A DNA stretch of 38,952 nucleotides from an uncultured Pelagibacteraceae bacterium (GTDB lineage: Bacteria; Pseudomonadota; Alphaproteobacteria; Pelagibacterales; Pelagibacteraceae). A program made the translations under genes and the position numbers. The notes below the pieces were generated by a model. It saw only the letters and a program-made list of their open reading frames with translations. It searched no databases and was not told the origin of the DNA. Below, one piece after another: positions 2,324 to 38,952 of the stretch; position 1 is the stretch's first letter, and each line of letters opens with the position of its first letter. The DNA lies in assembly GCA_902517175.1 (NCBI GenBank), contig CABYBM010000007.1, forward strand, positions 1 to 38,952, read 5' to 3'.

Positions 2324-4507
2324 ATGAAATACACAAAAATAATAAATGTTCTAATATTATTTTTAATTGTGTTTCAATTTACACATTTGAAAGCAGAAGT
2401 AAAACCTACTTTGTTAAGAACAGTTAGTTTAACTAATATTGTAAAATCTCCATCGGATGTGCGATTCAATCCTGATGGAACTAGAATTTTTTTTTCTGAT
2501 TATCGATCTACTAATCATTTATTACAATTTGATGTTGATACCCCTTTTAATATTTCTACAATAGATTTTAATAGTAAAGTAGAATTATTTATTAATGGAA
2601 CTGATGGCTTTCTTCAACCGCAAGGTTTTGAGTTTAATAACGATGGAACAAAAGTTTTTGTTATCAATGATGCAGGTAATTTCCAAGCCAATTTGCTTTC
2701 AGCTCCCTATGATTTTTCAAATCCCACCCGAGTTGCTGATGATGGTTTTAATTTTAAAACAGATCCGGATCCAAATATAAGTAATAACAGAGCTGTTAAA
2801 TTTAATCTTGACGGAACAAAAATGTTTCTTATTGATGTAAGTAGTAATAAACGAGTAGTTGAATTTAATTTATCTACTCCTTATGACACCAGCACAGTAA
2901 CTGAAGGAAATAGTTTTGCAATAAGTGGTACAACAACAGTTCTTCAAGATTTTTCATTTGATGATGATGGAACAAGAATGTATGTAATCGAATCTGGTAC
3001 AAGTCCAGGTGCGAGATTCATCTATGTTTATAAACTAAGTACAGGATTTAACATAACAACAGCAACGTTTGCAGGAAAAGTGCAGCAAGTGTTCGAGGAT
3101 GTAGGAAGTGATGGAACTAATGGTACTCCTCTGGGTATGGGATTCTCCGAAGATGGAATGAAACTTTACCAAGTTACTTACCATTCTGGTACGCAGGGTA
3201 ACCGTGATAGAATTCATGAATACGATTTAAGTTGTCCCTATGGAATTGTAATTTGTGAAGTTGAAACAACATCAGTTATAGGCGCTCAAGTAGAAATTGC
3301 TAAAAATGTTATTCATCAAAATTCATCAACAATATTTAAAAGATTTGAGTGGTTACGAAGAAACGAAAATAGACCAAATTTAAATAGCCATAACTTAAAA
3401 TTAAATATTGATAATCCAATTTTAGCATCCTTAAAAAATGAACTACAATCATCTTTTAAAGATTTTAAATATTCACAGGTATCATTAAAAGCAGAACAAC
3501 CAGCAGAAGATAAAAGAAAATGGTCTCACTGGTCACATGGTGATATTTCATTTGGAAGAGTGGGTGATAAAGCTTCAATTAAGCCAAAAGAAATTACAAC
3601 TAAAGGGATAATGATTGGAGCAGATAAATTAACAAAAAATAAGAATTTTTTTGGATTAGCAGTGAGATACGGTAATGATGATGTTGACATAAAATCTGGA
3701 AATAAAGAAGAATTAAATTCTCAATCTTTATCCTTTAATGTTTATAGCCAATTGCCTATCAATGATAAATCAAATTTAAATGCTCTAGTAGGGGTAAGCC
3801 TCTTAAGCATAGATCAAATGGTTTCTGGGACTGTTACTGGTGAAAGAAATGGAAAACAAATTTATACAGCTTTAAGTTATGAAAGTGAGCAAAGTTACTC
3901 TAAATTTGATATAGTCTCTTATGGTAAAACAGAGTTGGGGATCACACAATTATCTGAATATACTGATTTTGGAACAACAGCCACAAATAATGTTGAGACC
4001 CATGAAAGACTAACTTTTAAAACAGGAAATGCATCTGCTGGCTTTAAGTTTGATAACACTTTGTATATGGATGAAAACAGACTAAGTAGAAATGGATTTC
4101 TAGAGTATGTAATTGATTTTACACCAGATATTGATCATCGTTATAAAAATCACATTGATAATGTGACAATTCAAAATACCATTGAAAGGCATTCATTAAA
4201 TAATATTAAAGGAAATATTGGTTTTGAATTTTTAAAAAAGAGCGGTCATACATTTGCATTAAATTATGAAAGATTTCAAAGTTTAGATAATAGTGCACAC
4301 ACAGATAGTTTGCTTTTAAAATTTGGAAAACAAAAAAATGAAAATACTAATTTTAATGTGATTTATGATCCTTTAAAAAATAATAATACTGAAATCAGTT
4401 ATTTAAAAAATTATGATAATTTTAAATTAAAAGTAAAATCTAATTACGCAATGTATAGTAAAATTCCTGACTACGGTGCAGATATTGAATTTTCGGCAAC
4501 ATTTTAA
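2324..4507 (+). CDS. Secreted surface protein: beta-propeller-like DGT repeats with C-terminal autotransporter-type outer-membrane barrel
   Basis: Signal peptide; repeats FNPDGTRIFF, FNNDGTKVFV, FNLDGTKMFL, FDDDGTRMYV, FSEDGMKLYQ; beta-rich C-terminus ending in aromatic F (DIEFSATF). Confidence 0.75.
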   Translation: MKYTKIINVLILFLIVFQFTHLKAEVKPTLLRTVSLTNIVKSPSDVRFNPDGTRIFFSDYRSTNHLLQFDVDTPFNISTIDFNSKVELFINGTDGFLQPQGFEFNNDGTKVFVINDAGNFQANLLSAPYDFSNPTRVADDGFNFKTDPDPNISNNRAVKFNLDGTKMFLIDVSSNKRVVEFNLSTPYDTSTVTEGNSFAISGTTTVLQDFSFDDDGTRMYVIESGTSPGARFIYVYKLSTGFNITTATFAGKVQQVFEDVGSDGTNGTPLGMGFSEDGMKLYQVTYHSGTQGNRDRIHEYDLSCPYGIVICEVETTSVIGAQVEIAKNVIHQNSSTIFKRFEWLRRNENRPNLNSHNLKLNIDNPILASLKNELQSSFKDFKYSQVSLKAEQPAEDKRKWSHWSHGDISFGRVGDKASIKPKEITTKGIMIGADKLTKNKNFFGLAVRYGNDDVDIKSGNKEELNSQSLSFNVYSQLPINDKSNLNALVGVSLLSIDQMVSGTVTGERNGKQIYTALSYESEQSYSKFDIVSYGKTELGITQLSEYTDFGTTATNNVETHERLTFKTGNASAGFKFDNTLYMDENRLSRNGFLEYVIDFTPDIDHRYKNHIDNVTIQNTIERHSLNNIKGNIGFEFLKKSGHTFALNYERFQSLDNSAHTDSLLLKFGKQKNENTNFNVIYDPLKNNNTEISYLKNYDNFKLKVKSNYAMYSKIPDYGADIEFSATF

Positions 4508-4511
4508 TCTT

Positions 4512-6767
4512 GTGAAATTTATAAAAAAATTAATTTTAATTTTATTATTTATACTTCCAATCTCTAATTCATTTGCAGCTATGGTTACTTTTAACCAAAG
4601 AACTACAGTAGCTGATGGTGGTGACTTTATAGGTGGTATTCATTTTAACACTGATGGAACAAAAATGTTCATTAGTTATTCAGGGGATAGTAGATTTGTA
4701 GATGAATATAATTTAGCCACAGCATTTGATGTTTCTACAAGTAGTTATGCAGGTAATAGTGAAAGGTGCGAATTAGATGTTCTTGGGACTGGCGCTACGA
4801 AAACTAAAAAATTTGATATAGAATTTAGTAGCGATGGATTAAAATTATTTATTGCAGAGGGAATACCAAATAGTGGAGTAGATAAAGACAAGTTATATAG
4901 ATTTGATTTAACCTCACCTTATGATGTTTCAACATGTACATTTTCAGGTAATGCAACATTAAATCTTGAGAGTGGAAATAGTTTACAAAACGAAAGTAAT
5001 GCTGGAAATCGAACAGACTCAAACGGTGGTAGAGAAGATAATCGTCTTCAAGGTTTTGAAATTAATGAAGATGGAACAAAATTATTTATTGTATATCATG
5101 GTGCAGGTTCACAAAAACCAAGATTGTTAGAGTATACACTTTCAACTCCATACGATTTAACGACTATATCTCTTAATCTTAATGCAGGAATAGCACTAGA
5201 TGGTCAAGGAGTTTCTAATCCAATGGGAATGAGATTTAGTCCAAATGGAAAAAGAATTTGGATTAACAGTCATACTAACGGTGCACAAAGAGTAACTCAA
5301 ATTTCACTTGATGTAGCATATTCCACATCCTCATTTACGATAGATGGTTCAGTTTTTACACGAGACTTAAATGGCTCTAATAGTTTTCAACAACCAAGAG
5401 GAATCGCATTTAGTGCAGCTGGTTTAAAATTATATATTGGTACCGATCAAGATAATCCTAGTGATTCAGCAGATCATGTAAATGAACTTGATTTAATTTG
5501 TCCATTTAATATTATTGAAGGCAAATGTCCACCTGTAACAGAAAATAGTGACAGAACTGGAATAGCTATTGCACAAATAGAAGTTGCAACAAGAACTATA
5601 GAACATTCAACGGACACTGCTTTAAATAGATTAAAGTGGATTAGAAGAAACAAAGATAACCAAAACTTAACCAATCTTAATTTAGATTTTAATTTTACCA
5701 ATCAAGTACTTGCCTCTCTAACCAAAGCTGTAAAAACATCAGCCAATAATCAGAATAAACAAGATAAACCGCAAGATATATTTTATTGGAGTGAAGGAAG
5801 TATTGCTGTTGGAAGAGTGGGAGAGACAAATGTTTCTTCATTTAAAAAAGTTAAAACTGATGCAATCACAATTGGAGCAGATAAATTTACCAAAAATAAT
5901 GGTATCAGAGGACTAGCTTTTAGATTTGGTAAGAACGATATTGATGTTGGAACTGCTGGAAGCAATTTAGATACAGATACTTATAATTTGACACATTATA
6001 CATCTTCTCCAATTGAAGATGACACAAAGTTTATAGATACTATCCTTGGAGTAGGTGTCCTTAACTCAGATATTTTGTCAGTGCTTGATGGTAAACGTTT
6101 AGCAGCTAAAAGAAATGGTAAACAAATATATGGAACAATTAAATTAAAAGACGAGATTAAGAAAAATAATTTAATCCTAATTCCTTCAGCACAAATAGAT
6201 CTCGGTTACACTTTATTAGATGATTATCAAGAAAGCGGCACCACTGCTATGAACTTTAAAGAACAAAGTATCCAATCAAGGAATGTGAGACTTTCAATTG
6301 CAGCAGTTGATAAATTAGAAAATAATAAATATAAAATTCGAAAACATGGAAAATTAGAATACAAAGCAAATTTACATCGTTCTTCTAATATAAAATATTC
6401 TTATGTCTCCGATGCAACAAGTGGTGAATTTGATACCAAACTTAATTCAGGTACTTTACACAATATAAATGGTGAATTAGGTATAGATATAATTTTACCT
6501 GATAATTTTAGTATCTTTATAATCTATGAAAGAAATCAAGCTCTAGGAGTAGGGCATACTGATAAAATACATTTAGCGATAGGATACTTACCTAATAAAA
6601 AGACCAACTATGCTTTTAAGTTAGAAGGCTCAGATATGATTGGTTCTGTTTATAAGATTAGTAAAAATATAAATGATTTTGAAATTGATTTTAAATTGAA
6701 CAATAAAGATTTATTAAAACCAAATATCATTGATGAAGCAACAATCAGTTTAAAAAAAGTCTTTTAA
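4512..6767 (+). CDS. Paralog of the preceding surface protein (DGT repeats plus autotransporter-type barrel)
   Basis: Same architecture: FNTDGTKMFI, FSSDGLKLFI, INEDGTKLFI, FSPNGKRIWI, FSAAGLKLYI; shared linker (RLKWIRRNKDNQNLTNLNL) and barrel entry (WSEGSIAVGRVGE); ends VF. GTG at 4512 gives a clean signal peptide (MKFIKKLILILLFILPISNSFAA) and avoids overlap with the upstream gene, so the ORF-track start 4476 is probably too early. Confidence 0.75.
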   Translation: MKFIKKLILILLFILPISNSFAAMVTFNQRTTVADGGDFIGGIHFNTDGTKMFISYSGDSRFVDEYNLATAFDVSTSSYAGNSERCELDVLGTGATKTKKFDIEFSSDGLKLFIAEGIPNSGVDKDKLYRFDLTSPYDVSTCTFSGNATLNLESGNSLQNESNAGNRTDSNGGREDNRLQGFEINEDGTKLFIVYHGAGSQKPRLLEYTLSTPYDLTTISLNLNAGIALDGQGVSNPMGMRFSPNGKRIWINSHTNGAQRVTQISLDVAYSTSSFTIDGSVFTRDLNGSNSFQQPRGIAFSAAGLKLYIGTDQDNPSDSADHVNELDLICPFNIIEGKCPPVTENSDRTGIAIAQIEVATRTIEHSTDTALNRLKWIRRNKDNQNLTNLNLDFNFTNQVLASLTKAVKTSANNQNKQDKPQDIFYWSEGSIAVGRVGETNVSSFKKVKTDAITIGADKFTKNNGIRGLAFRFGKNDIDVGTAGSNLDTDTYNLTHYTSSPIEDDTKFIDTILGVGVLNSDILSVLDGKRLAAKRNGKQIYGTIKLKDEIKKNNLILIPSAQIDLGYTLLDDYQESGTTAMNFKEQSIQSRNVRLSIAAVDKLENNKYKIRKHGKLEYKANLHRSSNIKYSYVSDATSGEFDTKLNSGTLHNINGELGIDIILPDNFSIFIIYERNQALGVGHTDKIHLAIGYLPNKKTNYAFKLEGSDMIGSVYKISKNINDFEIDFKLNNKDLLKPNIIDEATISLKKVF

Positions 6768-21412: not shown

Positions 21413-21880
21413 ATGTTTTTAAGTACTTACGAGAACAAATTAGACAAAAAAGGAAGAGTATCAGTGCCAGCTAGCTTTAGATCTCATCTTTCTAATTTAG
21501 GATACAATGGTGTTATTTGTTACCCTTCGTTTAATAATTCGTCTATTGAAGCATGCTCACAAGACAGAATAGAAAAAATATCCTCAGCAATAGATTCTTT
21601 AAATCCTTTTGAAGAAAAAAGAGATTTTTTTGCAACCTCAATTTTAGCAGAAAGTACTAATTTACAATTTGATAGTGAGGGAAGAATTTCAATTTCATTA
21701 AAATTATTAAGACATGCTAAAATTAAAAATAGCATGTTGTTTGTTGGTCAAGGTCAAACGTTCCAAATATGGGAGCCAACATCGTTTGAGAAATTTAAGG
21801 TAAATGCTAGAAAAAAAGCAAATTTAAATCGAGCGAACCTTAAATGGGAAAAACATTTAAACAACAACGAGGGGAACTAA
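21413..21880 (+). CDS. mraZ: Transcriptional regulator MraZ
   Basis: STYENKLDKKGRVSVPASFRSHL; second AbrB-like half LQFDSEGRISISLKLLRHAKIKNSMLFVGQGQTFQIWEPTSFEKF. Confidence 0.95.
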   Translation: MFLSTYENKLDKKGRVSVPASFRSHLSNLGYNGVICYPSFNNSSIEACSQDRIEKISSAIDSLNPFEEKRDFFATSILAESTNLQFDSEGRISISLKLLRHAKIKNSMLFVGQGQTFQIWEPTSFEKFKVNARKKANLNRANLKWEKHLNNNEGN

Positions 21881-21881
21881 G

Positions 21882-23363
21882 ATGACAATTAACTTTAAAG
21901 CACCAGAGATAAAAGAGTTGCAGCCACGACTATTAGTTTTAGGGGTTGGTGGAGCAGGTGGAAATGCAATTAATGAAATGATCGAAAATAACATGCAAGG
22001 AGTTGAGTTTATTGCAGTTAACACCGACGCTCAAGACTTGAAACTTAGCAAAGCAAAATCAAGAATTCAAATAGGATTAAATTTAACCAAAGGTTTAGGC
22101 GCAGGTGCAAAACTTGATATTGGACAAGCTGCTGCTGACGAGTCTTTAAATGAAATTGTAAACACTCTCCAAGGTGCAAATATGGTTTTTATCGCTGCTG
22201 GTATGGGTGGTGGAACAGGCACTGGTGCTGCTCATGTCATTGCAAGAGCGGCCAAAGAATTAAATATTTTAACAGTAGGTGTTGTGACTCTCCCTTTTTT
22301 GTATGAAGGTCCTTCTAGAATGAGAAGAGCACAACATGGTTTAGAAGAATTACGAAAACACGTTGATACGATTATTGTTATTCCTAATCAAAACCTTTTT
22401 AAAATAGCTAACGAACAAACAACATTTGAAGAGTCTTTTAATCTTTCAAATAACGTTTTAATGCATGGAGTTCAAAGTGTTACAGATTTGATGGTAAGGC
22501 CTGGTATAATCAATTTAGATTTTGCTGATGTTGAAACTGTTATGGCTTCAATGGGTAAAGCCATGATGGGGACAGGAGAAGCTGAAGGTGAAGGTCGTGC
22601 AATGCAAGCTACAGAAATGGCAATTAATAATCCTTTAATAGATGATTACACCTTAAAAGGTGCCAGAGGTTTATTAGTCAACATAACAGGTGGTAAAGAT
22701 CTAAAACTTTTTGAAGTTGACGAAGTAGTAAATAAAATTAGATCCGAGGTTGATACTGAGGCAGAGGTTATAATTGGAGCAATAACAGACGGAGAGCTTG
22801 AAGGTAAAATTAGGGTTTCAATTGTTGCAACTTCACTTGATGGTCAACAACCAGAGTCAAAATCAGTTGTAAATATGGTTCATAGAATTCATAATCGAAA
22901 TCCTGGTTATTCAGATTTTTCTAATATTGGATCATCTGCATCTTTTAATTTTTCAAACACAACATCTTCAAGTCCAATTACTCACGGGGCTAATGCTTTA
23001 AAGCTGGAAAATGAAATAGTTCAGGACCAACTAAGTGATACGGCTCATACAAATGTTACAAATGAAGAGGTTTTACAAAGCTCAAATACTGAGACAGAAA
23101 GTGTTATTGAAGACGCATCGGTAAATGAGATGGAGAAATCTTTTACACAAGAAGCTATTGAGACACAAGATGAAACTAACGCACAAGAAGGTGTTGAAGA
23201 AAATATTTCAAACAATTTAAAAGAATTTGGGGTAGATTCAGACTCTCCTGATTTATTTAGCTCTGAGACAGAAAATTTAAGTCCAGAAGATTTATTGTCC
23301 TCTGAAAGAGAAGAAGAGGATGATCTTGAAATACCAGCATTCTTGAGAAGACAAAAAAATTAA
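21882..23363 (+). CDS. ftsZ: Cell division protein FtsZ
   Basis: GVGGAGGNAINEMI, NTDAQDL, tubulin signature GGGTGTGAAHVIARAAKE; C-terminal peptide DDLEIPAFLRRQKN after a long acidic linker. Confidence 0.98.
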   Translation: MTINFKAPEIKELQPRLLVLGVGGAGGNAINEMIENNMQGVEFIAVNTDAQDLKLSKAKSRIQIGLNLTKGLGAGAKLDIGQAAADESLNEIVNTLQGANMVFIAAGMGGGTGTGAAHVIARAAKELNILTVGVVTLPFLYEGPSRMRRAQHGLEELRKHVDTIIVIPNQNLFKIANEQTTFEESFNLSNNVLMHGVQSVTDLMVRPGIINLDFADVETVMASMGKAMMGTGEAEGEGRAMQATEMAINNPLIDDYTLKGARGLLVNITGGKDLKLFEVDEVVNKIRSEVDTEAEVIIGAITDGELEGKIRVSIVATSLDGQQPESKSVVNMVHRIHNRNPGYSDFSNIGSSASFNFSNTTSSSPITHGANALKLENEIVQDQLSDTAHTNVTNEEVLQSSNTETESVIEDASVNEMEKSFTQEAIETQDETNAQEGVEENISNNLKEFGVDSDSPDLFSSETENLSPEDLLSSEREEEDDLEIPAFLRRQKN

Positions 23364-26384: not shown

Positions 26385-29222
26385 ATGCGTTTAGGGGATC
26401 ACTTCCAAAAAATAAAAAAAAAATATCATAAAACTTTTTTTTCTGGGATTTGTTTTGATCATAGGAAAATAAAAAAAAATTATATTTTTTTTGCAATAAA
26501 AGGAAATAATTTAGATGGTAATAATTTCATACCATTAGTTATAAAAAAAGGTTGTAAAATAATTGTTACCGAGAAAAATTTTGATGAATGGAAAAATGGA
26601 GTTTTATATATCAACACAAAAAATATTAGAAAATTATTAGCTCAAATTTCGTTTAGTGTATTTAAAAAAAAACCAAAGAACCTAATTGCTGTTACTGGTA
26701 CAAATGGTAAATCTTCAGTTTCAGATTTTTATTATCAAATTTTACGTCTCAAAAATAAAAAAGTTGCTTCTATAGGAACACTAGGAGTGAGATCAAAAAA
26801 CTTTAATTTAAATTTATTAAATACCACTATTGATCCTATTTATTTAGGAAAAATTTTAAACGAATTAAAAAAAAGAAAAATAGAAAATGTAATTATGGAA
26901 GCATCAAGTCATGGGTTACATCAAAATAGATTAGATGGACTATTGTTTAATTCAGCTATATTTACTAATTTATCCCAAGACCATTTAGACTATCATAAAA
27001 ATTTTAAAAATTATCTTAATGCCAAACTTTATTTATTTCAAAATCTAGTAAAAAAAGGTGGATTTATTATAACCGATGACAAAATACCTGAATTAAAAAA
27101 GATTAAAAATATCAGTTTAAAAAAAGAATTAAAATTATTTACCCTTAAAAATAAATTTTTCCAAATTGTATCCCATAGTTATAAAAATGAAACTCAAATA
27201 TTAAAAATAAAACACGAAAACTTTATACATAAAATAAGAGTTAATCTTGTAGGAAAAATTCAATTAAAAAATATTTTGATGGCTATTATAGCAGCTTCAA
27301 AAAGTAATTTAGATTTAAAAAAAATATTTAGTGTTATTCCTAGACTATCTTCTGTTGAGGGTAGATTTGAAAAAATAGGAAAAATTAAAAATAAATCTTT
27401 AGTATTCCTTGATTACGCTCATACACCAGATGCCTTACAAACTTGTATTCTAAATATTAGAGAACAATTCCCTGATAAGCATATTTCTTTGCTCTTTGGA
27501 TGTGGTGGTGACAGAGATAAAGGTAAAAGATCAAAAATGGGCAAAATAGCTGATAAATATGCGAATAAAATTTATCTTACTGATGATAATCCAAGACATG
27601 AAAGGCCTAAGAAAATTAGAAATGAGATTAAAAGGGGTATAAAAAAAAGTCAAATTATTGAAATTTCTAATAGAAAAGAAGCAATTGTAAAAGCAATAAA
27701 TAACTTAAAGACAGGAAATGTTTTAATCGTTGCAGGCAAAGGTCATGAAAAAATTCAGCAGATTGGAAATAGACAAGTTGTTTTATCAGATAGGAAAATA
27801 ATTTTAAGCTCAATTAAAAAAAAGAATTTTAAATTATCTAAAAATTTAAAATTAAACATTATTAATGAAAGATTTGATCAAAATATTCTTTCATCTAAAT
27901 CGGTAATTAATAAAGCTAGTATAAACTCCAAGAGTGTTAAAAAAAATGATATTTTTTTTGCAATTAAAGGAAAAAAAAATGATGGTAATAAATTTGTTGA
28001 ACAAGTAATTCAAAAAAAGGCATCAATAGCTGTAGTAAATAAAATTCAAAAGAAACTAGCTATTAATAAACAAGCAAGCTCAATAAACCCTTTAGGTTTG
28101 CTTACAGAAACCGCAAAAATTTTTAGGAAAAATATTTCTACAAATATTATTGCCATAACAGGCAGTTGTGGAAAAACTTCTCTAAAGGAATTGTTGGGTA
28201 ACACCTTAAATAAAGTATCTAAGACAACAATTTCTCCAAAATCATATAATAATAAATATGGTGTTCCCTTAAGTCTTTTTAATATAAATCAAAATGATGA
28301 TTATGGCGTTATTGAAGTTGGAATGGATAAAAAAGGAGAAATAGATCAACTCTCAAAAATTATTCAACCTGATATAAGTGTAATCACAAATATTAACTAC
28401 GCGCATGCCAAAAATTTTAAAAACATAAGACAAATAGCTTTAGCAAAAGCTGAAATAATTAATAATACTAAAGATAATGGCTATGTAGTCCTTAACGCTG
28501 ATGATGCTTTTTTTGGTTTACATAAGAAAATAGCACATAAAAAGAGAATCAAAGTATTATCTTTTGGAATAAACAATCAATATGCAGATATTAAATTACA
28601 CAATATTATAAAATTCAAAAAAAAATATAAAATCTGTATTAAAATAAATAAAATTAAAAAAAATTTTATAGTTTCAAATGATTTTCAAAATCATATTTAT
28701 AATATCTTGGCAGCGCTAACTGTTAAAAGTGTTTTTTTTAATATTTTCAAATTAGATAAAAATATATTTCTAAATTTTAGAACTCCAGAGGGAAGGGGAG
28801 ATATAACTAAAATTAAAGTGAATAAAAAAATTATAAACTTAATTGATGAAAGTTATAATTCAAATCCATTATCTTTAAAGACTGCAATATTAAATTATGA
28901 TAAGATCAAAACAAAAAATGCTAAAAAGTATCTCATACTTGGTGACATGTTAGAGCTGGGGCATCATTCAAAAAAACTTCATGAATCTATAGCACCAGTA
29001 ATTAATAGAACAAATATTGATAAAGTTTTTGTTAAAGGAAAGGAAATCTCTTTATTGTATAATAAAATTTCTAATCTTAAAAAAGGTTCAGTTTTAAGAA
29101 ATAAATTGCAAATAAACGATCTAATTGAAAATAACTTTGATAATGATGATTTCTTGATGATAAAGGCCTCAAATGCGACAGGTTTCAATAAGATAGTAAA
29201 AGAATTAAAAGGTACAAATTAA
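26385..29222 (+). CDS. murE/murF: MurE-MurF fusion: UDP-MurNAc-tripeptide synthetase and UDP-MurNAc-pentapeptide synthetase
   Basis: 945 aa; first half VTGTNGKSSVSDFYYQIL, DYAHTPDAL, DNPRHE; second half ITGSCGKTSLKELLGNTL, EVGMDKKGEI, DESYNSNPLSLKTAI, LGDMLELG in one open frame. Confidence 0.95.
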   Translation: MRLGDHFQKIKKKYHKTFFSGICFDHRKIKKNYIFFAIKGNNLDGNNFIPLVIKKGCKIIVTEKNFDEWKNGVLYINTKNIRKLLAQISFSVFKKKPKNLIAVTGTNGKSSVSDFYYQILRLKNKKVASIGTLGVRSKNFNLNLLNTTIDPIYLGKILNELKKRKIENVIMEASSHGLHQNRLDGLLFNSAIFTNLSQDHLDYHKNFKNYLNAKLYLFQNLVKKGGFIITDDKIPELKKIKNISLKKELKLFTLKNKFFQIVSHSYKNETQILKIKHENFIHKIRVNLVGKIQLKNILMAIIAASKSNLDLKKIFSVIPRLSSVEGRFEKIGKIKNKSLVFLDYAHTPDALQTCILNIREQFPDKHISLLFGCGGDRDKGKRSKMGKIADKYANKIYLTDDNPRHERPKKIRNEIKRGIKKSQIIEISNRKEAIVKAINNLKTGNVLIVAGKGHEKIQQIGNRQVVLSDRKIILSSIKKKNFKLSKNLKLNIINERFDQNILSSKSVINKASINSKSVKKNDIFFAIKGKKNDGNKFVEQVIQKKASIAVVNKIQKKLAINKQASSINPLGLLTETAKIFRKNISTNIIAITGSCGKTSLKELLGNTLNKVSKTTISPKSYNNKYGVPLSLFNINQNDDYGVIEVGMDKKGEIDQLSKIIQPDISVITNINYAHAKNFKNIRQIALAKAEIINNTKDNGYVVLNADDAFFGLHKKIAHKKRIKVLSFGINNQYADIKLHNIIKFKKKYKICIKINKIKKNFIVSNDFQNHIYNILAALTVKSVFFNIFKLDKNIFLNFRTPEGRGDITKIKVNKKIINLIDESYNSNPLSLKTAILNYDKIKTKNAKKYLILGDMLELGHHSKKLHESIAPVINRTNIDKVFVKGKEISLLYNKISNLKKGSVLRNKLQINDLIENNFDNDDFLMIKASNATGFNKIVKELKGTN

Positions 29223-36075: not shown

Positions 36076-36990
36076 TTGAAAAAAAAAATATTAATTATTT
36101 CAGGGGGAATTTCAAAAGAGAGATCAGTTAGCCTTGATACTGGTTTACAAGTAGCAAACGAACTAAGAAGAAATTTATACAACGTTAAAATTTCTGAGCC
36201 AAATTATAATCTAGAAAAAACAATCAAAAAGTTTAATCCACATTTGATTTTCAATGCCTTACACGGGCAGTTTGGAGAAGATGGCTATATTCAAACTATA
36301 TTAGAAATGCTCAAAATACCTTATACTCATTCAGGTGTAATTCCATCTGCAATTGCAATGGATAAAGAAATATCAAAAAAGTTATTCGCAAAATATAAAA
36401 TTAATACTCCAAAGTTCTTTACATATTCATTCGACAAAAGAAATTCACAACTGGTTAAAGCAATCGACAGTAGATTAAAATTTCCGGTTGTGGTCAAACC
36501 ATTAAATGAAGGCTCAAGTGTAAATGTATTTATTTGTACAAAGAAAAATATATTTAAAATTTTGAATTCGCTTAAAAATTATAAAAGGGTAATGATTGAG
36601 CAATTTATAGGAGGTAGAGAAATACAGGTTGCAATTTTAGGAAATAAAAAATTAGGGGCAATTGAACTAAAACCAAAAAGAAAATTTTATGATTATCAAG
36701 CTAAGTATAATACCAATGCTAAAACACAACATATTATAAAAATTGATTTGCCTAAGAAAAAATTAAATGAAGTATTAGAGATAGCACACAAGGCTCATAA
36801 AATAATAGGATGTAAAGGAGTTACTAGATCAGACTTTAAATATTTTAATGGTAAATTTTATTTATTAGAAATCAATACTCAGCCTGGAATGACAAAACTT
36901 TCTTTAGTTCCTGAAATAGCTGCTCATAATGGAATGAGCTTTTTAGAATTAATTGAATGGATATTAGAAGATGCGTCGACAAATAGGTAA
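36076..36990 (+). CDS. ddl: D-alanine--D-alanine ligase
   Basis: ISGGISKERSVSLDTG, FNALHGQFGEDGYIQ, YTHSGVIPSAIAMDKEISK, VVKPLNEGSSVNV, LLEINTQPGMTKLSLVPEIA; TTG start. Confidence 0.95.
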   Translation: MKKKILIISGGISKERSVSLDTGLQVANELRRNLYNVKISEPNYNLEKTIKKFNPHLIFNALHGQFGEDGYIQTILEMLKIPYTHSGVIPSAIAMDKEISKKLFAKYKINTPKFFTYSFDKRNSQLVKAIDSRLKFPVVVKPLNEGSSVNVFICTKKNIFKILNSLKNYKRVMIEQFIGGREIQVAILGNKKLGAIELKPKRKFYDYQAKYNTNAKTQHIIKIDLPKKKLNEVLEIAHKAHKIIGCKGVTRSDFKYFNGKFYLLEINTQPGMTKLSLVPEIAAHNGMSFLELIEWILEDASTNR

Positions 36991-37642
36991 AAAAATTTTA
37001 ATTTATTTTTTTCTATTCTTAATAGTTGGTTCAGTTAATAATACCACGTTAATAAGAGTCCAATTTGAAAATATTAAGAATATTCAAATTTCAGGGCTTA
37101 GCAAAAATCAAAATATGAATCTTTTAAAAAATATTGAAAATTTAAATTTAAAAAAAATTTTTTATCTTAATAGAAATGAAATTTCTAAAATAATAAGCTC
37201 TAATAGCTTAATTGAAAATTATGAAGTATTTAAAAAATATCCACATACTCTAGATATCAGAATTGAAAAAACTAATTTTTTAGCAAAAATTAATTATAAT
37301 GGAAAAATATTTCTTATAGGATCAAATGGCAAGTTATCAGATGTAAAATTTGCAGATAAAGAGGTACCGTTTATATTTGGCAAACCAGAAATTGAAGATT
37401 TTATTAAATTTACAAATACTATTGATAAATCTAAATTTTCGTTAAATGACACTAAAAATTTATATTTTTTTCCATCCAAGAGATGGGATTTAGAGCTAAA
37501 AAATAATATAATTCTAAAATTATCAAAAGATCACACTCTGCTTTCTTTAGATCAAGCTTTTGAAATTTTAAATGACGGTAATTTTAAAGATATTAAAGTA
37601 GTTGACGCAAGAATTAAAAACCAAATCATTTTAAATGACTGA
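36971..37642 (+). CDS. ftsQ: Division protein FtsQ (POTRA domain)
   Basis: N-terminal TM, POTRA-like IKNIQISGLSKNQNMNLLKNIENLNLKKIFYLNRNEISKIISSNSLIENYEVFKKYPHTLDIRIEKTNFLAKI; position after ddl; overlaps ddl by 20 nt. Confidence 0.88.
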   Translation: MRRQIGKKILIYFFLFLIVGSVNNTTLIRVQFENIKNIQISGLSKNQNMNLLKNIENLNLKKIFYLNRNEISKIISSNSLIENYEVFKKYPHTLDIRIEKTNFLAKINYNGKIFLIGSNGKLSDVKFADKEVPFIFGKPEIEDFIKFTNTIDKSKFSLNDTKNLYFFPSKRWDLELKNNIILKLSKDHTLLSLDQAFEILNDGNFKDIKVVDARIKNQIILND

Positions 37643-38339
37643 TGAATTAAGTTACGAGGTTTATTTAAGTATTTCTCAGAAAAAGTTTGTAATTTATTTA
37701 TTAAATAAAGAAAATTTTAAAAATATACATATAGATGAGTTATACTTAGAAAGTACTGCAGATCAAATAGATTACAATCTACTAGGTAGTTTCCTTGATA
37801 ATAATATTTTTAAAATAGAAAAATTAATTGGTAATTTTTTAAAAAGTATCAATGTAATAATCAAAAATAATTATATTTTAAATTCCTCTATTGGAATAAA
37901 GAAAAAAAACTATGGTGAAACAATTAATAAAGAATATCTTGAAAATTTATTGATTGAGCTTAAGGATTTATTTAGAGAAAACTATCAAAACAATAAAATT
38001 ATGCATTTTTTAATAAACAGATATTTAGTTGATGGGGTAGATCACAAAACATTTGAAAAAGAAATTTACTGCAATCATATGTGTATTGAAGTAAATTTTA
38101 TTTCTATTCCCAATATTTTAATTAAAGAAATCAGCAATGTTTTAGGTAAATATCAAATAAAAATAGACCGTTTTTTAGAGGAGAGATATATTAAAAGTTT
38201 TTTCGAAAGTAATTCTTTAGATTTATCTGTAATTGCCTTCAAGATACAAAATGGTCATAATTATAGTGAAATTAGTTTAGTTCCAAAAAGCCTTAAAAAG
38301 AAAGGTTTTTTTGAAAAATTTTTTCAATTATTTAGTTAA
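37635..38339 (+). CDS. Reduced FtsA-like protein (N-terminal plus 1C/SHS2-like region and C-terminal amphipathic helix; most of the ATPase core missing)
   Basis: Occupies the ftsA slot between ftsQ and lpxC; 234 aa. Pattern KLIGNFLKSINVIIKNNYILNSSIGI ... TINKEYLENLLIEL ... IMHFLINRYLVDGVDHKTFEKEIYCNHMCIEVNFISIPNILIKEISNVLGKYQIKIDRFLEERY resembles the FtsA 1C region (isg..., evt..dv.., ...ih.ip..y.vDg..g...p.g..g..l.v..h.i.....v.kni...l...gl.vd.lv...yas); C-term KSLKKKGFFEKFFQLFS. Confidence 0.65.
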   Translation: MTDELSYEVYLSISQKKFVIYLLNKENFKNIHIDELYLESTADQIDYNLLGSFLDNNIFKIEKLIGNFLKSINVIIKNNYILNSSIGIKKKNYGETINKEYLENLLIELKDLFRENYQNNKIMHFLINRYLVDGVDHKTFEKEIYCNHMCIEVNFISIPNILIKEISNVLGKYQIKIDRFLEERYIKSFFESNSLDLSVIAFKIQNGHNYSEISLVPKSLKKKGFFEKFFQLFS

Positions 38340-38403: not shown

Positions 38404-38952
38404 GTGTCTTATTTAACTCAAAAAACATTAAAAACCAATATTTCTTTCAGTGGTGTAGCTTTACATAGTGGACTTAATGTTAATGTTTGCATTAAGCCAG
38501 CTGAACCTGATTTTGGGATTGTTTTCAAAAGAGTTGATTTAAAATTAAATAATATAATTTACCCAAATTTTAATAATGTCACAAATACATCTTTAAACAC
38601 AACGGTAGAAAATGAGTTTGGTGCAAGAGTTTCAACTATAGAACATTTAATGGGAGCTTTATTTGGTCTAGGAATTGATAATGCTTTAATTGAAATTGAC
38701 AAAGAAGAAGTTCCAATTTTAGATGGTTCTGCTAAAGTATTTATAGATAAGATAATCTCATCAGGATTTGAGGTAAGCGACTGTCCAATCAAAATTATAA
38801 AAATAAATAAAGAAATAAAGTATTCAAATGGAGAAAGATTTATATCAATCAAACCTTCAACACTAAGTTTGGATATTGATTTTGAATTAAAATATAAAAA
38901 TAATATTATTGGAAATCAAAGGAACAAGGTTAAAGTATACGAGGATGATTTA
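38404..38952 (+). CDS. lpxC: UDP-3-O-acyl-N-acetylglucosamine deacetylase, truncated by the window end
   Basis: GTG start; YLTQKTLKTNISFSGVALHSGLNVNVCIKPA, VSTIEHLMGALFGLGIDNALIEIDKEEVPILDGSAKVF; frame open to 38952 (absent from the supplied ORF list). Confidence 0.95.
   Translation, partial: MSYLTQKTLKTNISFSGVALHSGLNVNVCIKPAEPDFGIVFKRVDLKLNNIIYPNFNNVTNTSLNTTVENEFGARVSTIEHLMGALFGLGIDNALIEIDKEEVPILDGSAKVFIDKIISSGFEVSDCPIKIIKINKEIKYSNGERFISIKPSTLSLDIDFELKYKNNIIGNQRNKVKVYEDDL

Follow-up and report, generated by a model that had tools for sequence, protein, structure and literature searches.

In the usual view, FtsA is an actin-like ATPase that controls division through its nucleotide state, its polymerisation and its binding of FtsZ. 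The C-terminal peptide of FtsZ also has further readers in bacteria. In FtsA, the peptide is bound by subdomain 2B, where FtsEX competes for it (PMC8998562). Lateral contacts of FtsA are made via IC and longitudinal contacts involve IIA-IIB, while the cytoplasmic tail of FtsN binds the IA-IC cleft (PMC7613929). No report of a half-size FtsA was found in the searchable literature, with subscription journals and preprints lying outside the search.

The DNA analyzed here (the window, 38,952 nucleotides in all) belongs to a draft genome of an uncultured Pelagibacteraceae bacterium that is 62.8% complete and comprises 52 contigs. Directly after ftsQ, at the place of FtsA in the dcw cluster, it carries a gene termed mini-ftsA, with an intact frame of 234 codons and an 8 bp overlap with the ftsQ stop; lpxC starts ~65 bp downstream of its end (Table 1). 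An earlier note on this DNA had placed an intact ORF of this size between ftsQ and lpxC, and its coordinates were borne out.

Table 1. Positions in the window of mini-ftsA, its predicted segments, its neighbors and ftsZ.
Feature	Position	Strand	Evidence
ftsZ, between mraZ and rsmH, with intact C-terminal peptide DDLEIPAFLRRQKN	21882..23363	+	
ftsQ, overlapping the mini-ftsA start	36971..37642	+	POTRA_1, E 2.7e-8
mini-ftsA, predicted lobe-I-only FtsA (1A + 1C + C-terminal amphipathic helix), 234 aa	37635..38339	+	alignment, AlphaFold2 model, Foldseek, hhalign
mini-FtsA residues 1-189, predicted lobe I (1A, 1C), 13 secondary-structure elements in long-form order; phosphate-1 Asp and Gly lost	37635..38201	+	
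mini-FtsA residues 190-196, short linker where the 2A+2B block (~145 aa in long orthologues) appears excised	38202..38222	+	alignment
mini-FtsA residues 197-213, predicted last 1A helix and GxNxxEv linker; "phosphate-2" of the earlier note	38223..38273	+	alignment, model
mini-FtsA residues 221-234, predicted C-terminal amphipathic membrane-targeting helix KKKGFFEKFFQLFS	38295..38336	+	model
lpxC, running off the window end	38404..38952	+	

Elsewhere in the window, ftsZ lies in the order mraZ-ftsZ-rsmH (21413-23363) and not behind ftsA, an arrangement common to the whole family and also found in the single genome of a second family in which the region is complete. The murE and murF genes are fused into a single 945-aa ORF (26385-29222) with two Mur ligase middle-domain and two C-terminal-domain matches, and the genus relatives fetched match this ORF at one place. 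The products of two adjoining, slightly overlapping genes (2324-6767) are related to each other, secreted, and bear autotransporter beta-domains, and positions 263-2314 of this streamlined SAR11 genome encode a protein with CHASE2 and a SpoIIE-type phosphatase.

By itself, the window protein (P0001) matches the FtsA model TIGR01174 weakly (E 0.05, residues 57-182), scoring 12.7 bits against a curated cut-off of 175.85 bits that no genus g1 genome among those tested passes. As a single query it gave no noteworthy Pfam match and no PDB sequence match. Orthologues made the relationship plain. Among 21 aligned members, 17 match TIGR01174 with E 0.001 or better and four match the Pfam family SHS2_FTSA, P0001 not being one of the four. 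A profile of 12 short orthologues found E. coli FtsA (7q6d, E 5e-4), and hhalign of this profile with that of nine long-form Pelagibacter FtsA proteins returned a match of 99.9% (E 2.9e-34).

The AlphaFold2 model of P0001, for which the short-form alignment served as input, has a pLDDT of 85.6 and a pTM of 0.80. When searched with Foldseek, ranks 1-19 were all solved FtsA chains (E 3e-12 to 3e-8; best 4a2a, E 3e-12), followed by PilM and then GspL/EpsL; VIA-align of the model with FtsA gave Z 12-14.6 over ~200 residues spanning FtsA 5-392. The order of elements and the match to FtsA structures show that the short protein has domain 1C (SHS2), which stands where actin has 1B. The predicted model of a long relative (371 aa, pLDDT 83.3) contains 13 elements in an order identical to that of the short form, then ten more that make up 2A and 2B, and finally a last helix and a C-terminal helix common to both. 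Because the same 13 elements are present, the next ten missing and the final helices common, the short protein is, as judged by alignment and models, FtsA lobe I with lobe II cleanly excised: ~145 aa, comprising 2A and 2B with their ATP-binding motifs, are absent in the alignment and in the model alike. Domain borders were taken from the alignment to the known FtsA architecture and from the predicted models. P0001 has a predicted amphipathic C-terminal helix (KGFFEKFFQLF; helix 225-232, hydrophobic moment 0.56), and such a helix is kept in all short forms. On this combined evidence, the 234-aa product is an FtsA homologue reduced to one predicted lobe.

The earlier reading is upheld in part by these results. 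It had described an FtsA 1C-like middle, for which the TIGR01174 match to residues 57-182, the profile matches and the model now speak, a retained membrane-targeting helix, seen here as the predicted helix 225-232, and the loss of the phosphate-1 Asp and Gly. It had also held the ATPase core and 2B to be gone; with 2A and 2B missing from the gene, the protein would have neither an ATP cleft nor the known FtsZ-peptide site. The Foldseek comparison that it had proposed returned FtsA structures as the best matches. In contrast, its view that 1C alone was kept needs correction, since the full lobe I (1A + 1C) appears to be retained. Likewise, AFKIQNGHNYSEI, taken for a degraded phosphate-2 loop, corresponds in the alignment to the final 1A helix plus linker of the long forms (ICESALKLGEGLNKQEV); the true phosphate-2 segment falls within the excised block and hence is deleted entirely.

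We surveyed ftsA length in 61 genomes and later in 397 genomes family-wide. The first set contained two FtsA length classes inside one genus, a pattern upheld in the larger search. At one locus, FtsA of genus g1 (Pelagibacteraceae, SAR11) is either 222-244 aa or 367-391 aa long, with no intermediates; all other sampled Pelagibacteraceae genera and a second family of the order have long FtsA. Among 159 distinct sequences, 84 fall at 222-244 aa, 75 at 367-411 aa and none between. The incompleteness of the window genome and its many contigs would invite the explanation that the short gene is an assembly or gene-calling artefact, but the identical length class recurs in dozens of species, in single-cell genomes and in the single-contig genomes G063, G077, G095 and G123, leaving this explanation with a negligible chance of being correct. 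The comparison with orthologs that the earlier note had called for thus shows the short length to be a conserved class, and this conservation in relatives rules out both a recent pseudogene and an assembly error as explanations of mini-ftsA. The half-size FtsA is real and more widespread than first stated. Every genome seen with the ftsQ-lpxC interval intact had ftsA in it. Fifteen genomes with no or only a partial FtsA match were checked and do not speak for FtsA-less species: ten also lack lpxC, and therefore the locus is absent from those assemblies, and among the remaining five several carry lpxC close to a contig end.

A tree was built from twelve genes of ftsA's cluster (5181 columns). 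In this well-supported tree, short forms occupy four places, clades A (the window's), B, C and D, and the sister of the clade C short forms is a long pair (G450, G324). AU tests on this tree rejected monophyly of all short forms (p about 1e-75) and of A+B+D (p 7e-5), a grouping picked after the tree was seen; the tests used LG+G4 quick searches and genes adjoining ftsA. A three-gene tree (LpxC+FtsQ+Ddl) did not discriminate between single and multiple losses (AU p 0.12). Because a single origin of the short forms was rejected, lobe II was lost at least twice, and probably four times in parallel, the latter if it was never regained. The long clade close to clade A (G086) is a candidate for such a regain. 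Its 2A-2B block was not nested in another long clade, but the weak support for this placement leaves a regain with some chance.

The dN/dS of short ftsA, obtained by Nei-Gojobori counts over 14 close pairs, ranged from 0.108 to 0.256 (median 0.177), compared to 0.168 for ftsQ and 0.071 for lpxC. Short ftsA is under purifying selection, much like ftsQ, and a pseudogene, for which the earlier note had proposed this same check, was ruled out by these values. A slower decay could still be imagined, in which mini-FtsA is a remnant kept by chance or for a marginal role and heading to loss. Such decay would agree with the fast evolution of the short forms, which are 25-47% identical to P0001, with the drift of their phosphate-1 residues and with a broken short ftsA frame in G012 (single contig, 1,343,202 bp; L017 1340-1530, near a T/A run), which is a sequencing error or a genuine loss in that one genome. 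The remaining complete short copies, however, have intact frames within a narrow length span and a dN/dS equal to that of ftsQ; E62, E212 and F230 are (nearly) invariant, the amphipathic helix is universal, and the ftsQ-lpxC interval was never seen intact and empty. We therefore regard decay as improbable.

The nucleotide-binding motifs differ between the two classes. The acidic residue (D/E) of phosphate-1 is found in 58/58 long g1 sequences, whereas its Asp persists in 2/84 short ones, both of clade B, in line with a recent loss. The two Gly of the adenosine motif GxGS and the 2B Arg are likewise found in 58/58 long g1 proteins. In phosphate-2, where GGG is usual, nearly every long FtsA, whether from g1 or from outside it, has other residues at the second and third Gly positions; residues 197-206 of the ftsA product of L015 provide an example. 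ATP use may thus be altered family-wide in the long FtsA of Pelagibacteraceae. Because the phosphate-2 glycines are altered throughout the family, the ATPase was probably already unimportant, which suggests that it weakened before lobe II was lost.

The conservation of lobe II residues in all long relatives would be understandable if FtsA were split, with lobe II encoded elsewhere and the halves assembling in trans, or if a second full-length FtsA existed. A profile of 2A-2B alone (E up to 0.1) found no match in eight short-form genomes (G000, G063, G077, G095, G123, G012, G111 and G172; five of them single-contig), whereas it gave the expected single match in 6/6 long-form controls. These results indicate that the missing half has neither moved nor split off. 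Candidates for a second ftsA were rejected: the other PF14450 match in the window genome proved to be MreB, and the frames holding additional TIGR01174 matches have the size of MreB. A separate full-length ftsA, which the earlier note had wanted looked for, was not found in the complete short-form genomes, and neither was a separate 2A-2B piece. The absence claims rest on these complete relatives, the window genome itself being incomplete. A split or second FtsA is, in our judgment, highly improbable.

Short- and long-form species of the genus alike retain the FtsZ C-terminal peptide EIPAFLRRQK, with one K to R change. In short-form species the peptide (LEIPAFLRRQK) is unchanged, in keeping with the earlier observation that it is still present, and FtsZ has no short-specific residue at the 90% level. 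Since the peptide is kept, something presumably reads it. The ZipA- or SepF-like tether suggested earlier was not found, as profile searches gave neither above cut-off. ZapA is present in 14/14 genomes tested. The FtsX_ECD model had no match in the genomes searched, nor in a Caulobacter control. FtsN was not recognised with the SPOR profile, whose matches (L240-L246) are putative lipoproteins of ~250-280 aa bearing an N-terminal signal with Cys.

The reader of the peptide might be mini-FtsA itself, which would then mainly tether FtsZ directly, through a new site on lobe I, and still serve as its main membrane anchor without ATP or polymerisation. The unaltered peptide, the lack of short-specific FtsZ residues, the lack of ZipA and SepF over cut-off and the constant position of the gene behind ftsQ would all fit such a tether, but the peptide has other readers in bacteria. 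Moreover, because the 2B Arg is invariant in all 58 long relatives of the genus, the 2B site seems to have been selected until it was lost; 2B is the known peptide site (PMC8998562; structure title 4a2a) and is absent here. Direct tethering is accordingly an unlikely explanation, if one to be taken seriously.

We favor, as reasonably probable, the reading that mini-FtsA is a stable one-lobe FtsA whose role in the divisome is that of a nucleotide-free membrane adaptor. Without lobe II it would lack an ATP cleft, an actin-type longitudinal filament contact and the 2B pocket that takes up the FtsZ peptide. The protein would be held on the inner membrane by its predicted C-terminal helix and would offer its 1A-1C face, which in FtsA is the FtsN site, to a partner; 1C-1C contacts, the lateral dimer interface of FtsA, could also be formed. 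The scaffolding of FtsN/PBP contacts through 1C that the earlier note had suggested would be a hypothetical role. FtsZ would be held by another membrane protein reading its peptide, or mini-FtsA would itself bind FtsZ through a remodelled contact, which might be a nucleotide-independent one made by lobe I. The ATPase would have become unimportant first, and lobe II would then have been deleted independently in several lineages. More tentatively, it is possible that most sampled lineages of this dominant ocean genus have a one-lobe, nucleotide-free FtsA with about four parallel origins, and that their FtsZ is anchored by a separate, as-yet hypothetical, peptide-reading membrane protein. In a bacterial group that is among the most abundant, selection has time and again kept no more of FtsA than the predicted membrane helix and the 1A-1C lobe, providing a natural experiment that separates the scaffold role of FtsA from its ATPase and FtsZ roles. 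Two testable questions follow: what lobe I does alone, and what keeps FtsZ at the membrane.

Among known systems, FtsA (TIGR01174; T. maritima 1E4F/4A2A, E. coli 7Q6D, V. maritimus 7Q6I) is the best structural match of mini-FtsA and has in common with it the locus behind ftsQ, domains 1A and 1C, the final 1A helix and the amphipathic helix at the C-terminus; mini-FtsA differs in its predicted lack of 2A, 2B, the ATP cleft and the known FtsZ-peptide site, and in its length (222-244 aa vs about 370-420). The long FtsA of other Pelagibacteraceae has the same locus and gene order and an already altered phosphate-2 loop, but keeps 2A, 2B and the invariant 2B Arg. PilM (5EOU, 2YCH), a cytoplasmic scaffold of type IV pili, has the FtsA-like 1A/1C fold of mini-FtsA, whereas it keeps both lobes, binds nucleotide (ATP/ADP in solved entries) and has no ftsQ/lpxC linkage. 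The cytoplasmic domain of the inner-membrane protein GspL/EpsL (1W97, 4PHT; type II secretion), which ranks behind FtsA and PilM, is likewise an actin-fold scaffold of ~225-240 aa; the likeness is structural alone (VIA Z about 11), with another locus, pathway and partners, and GspL/EpsL can serve as a parallel for an actin-like adaptor in reduced form.
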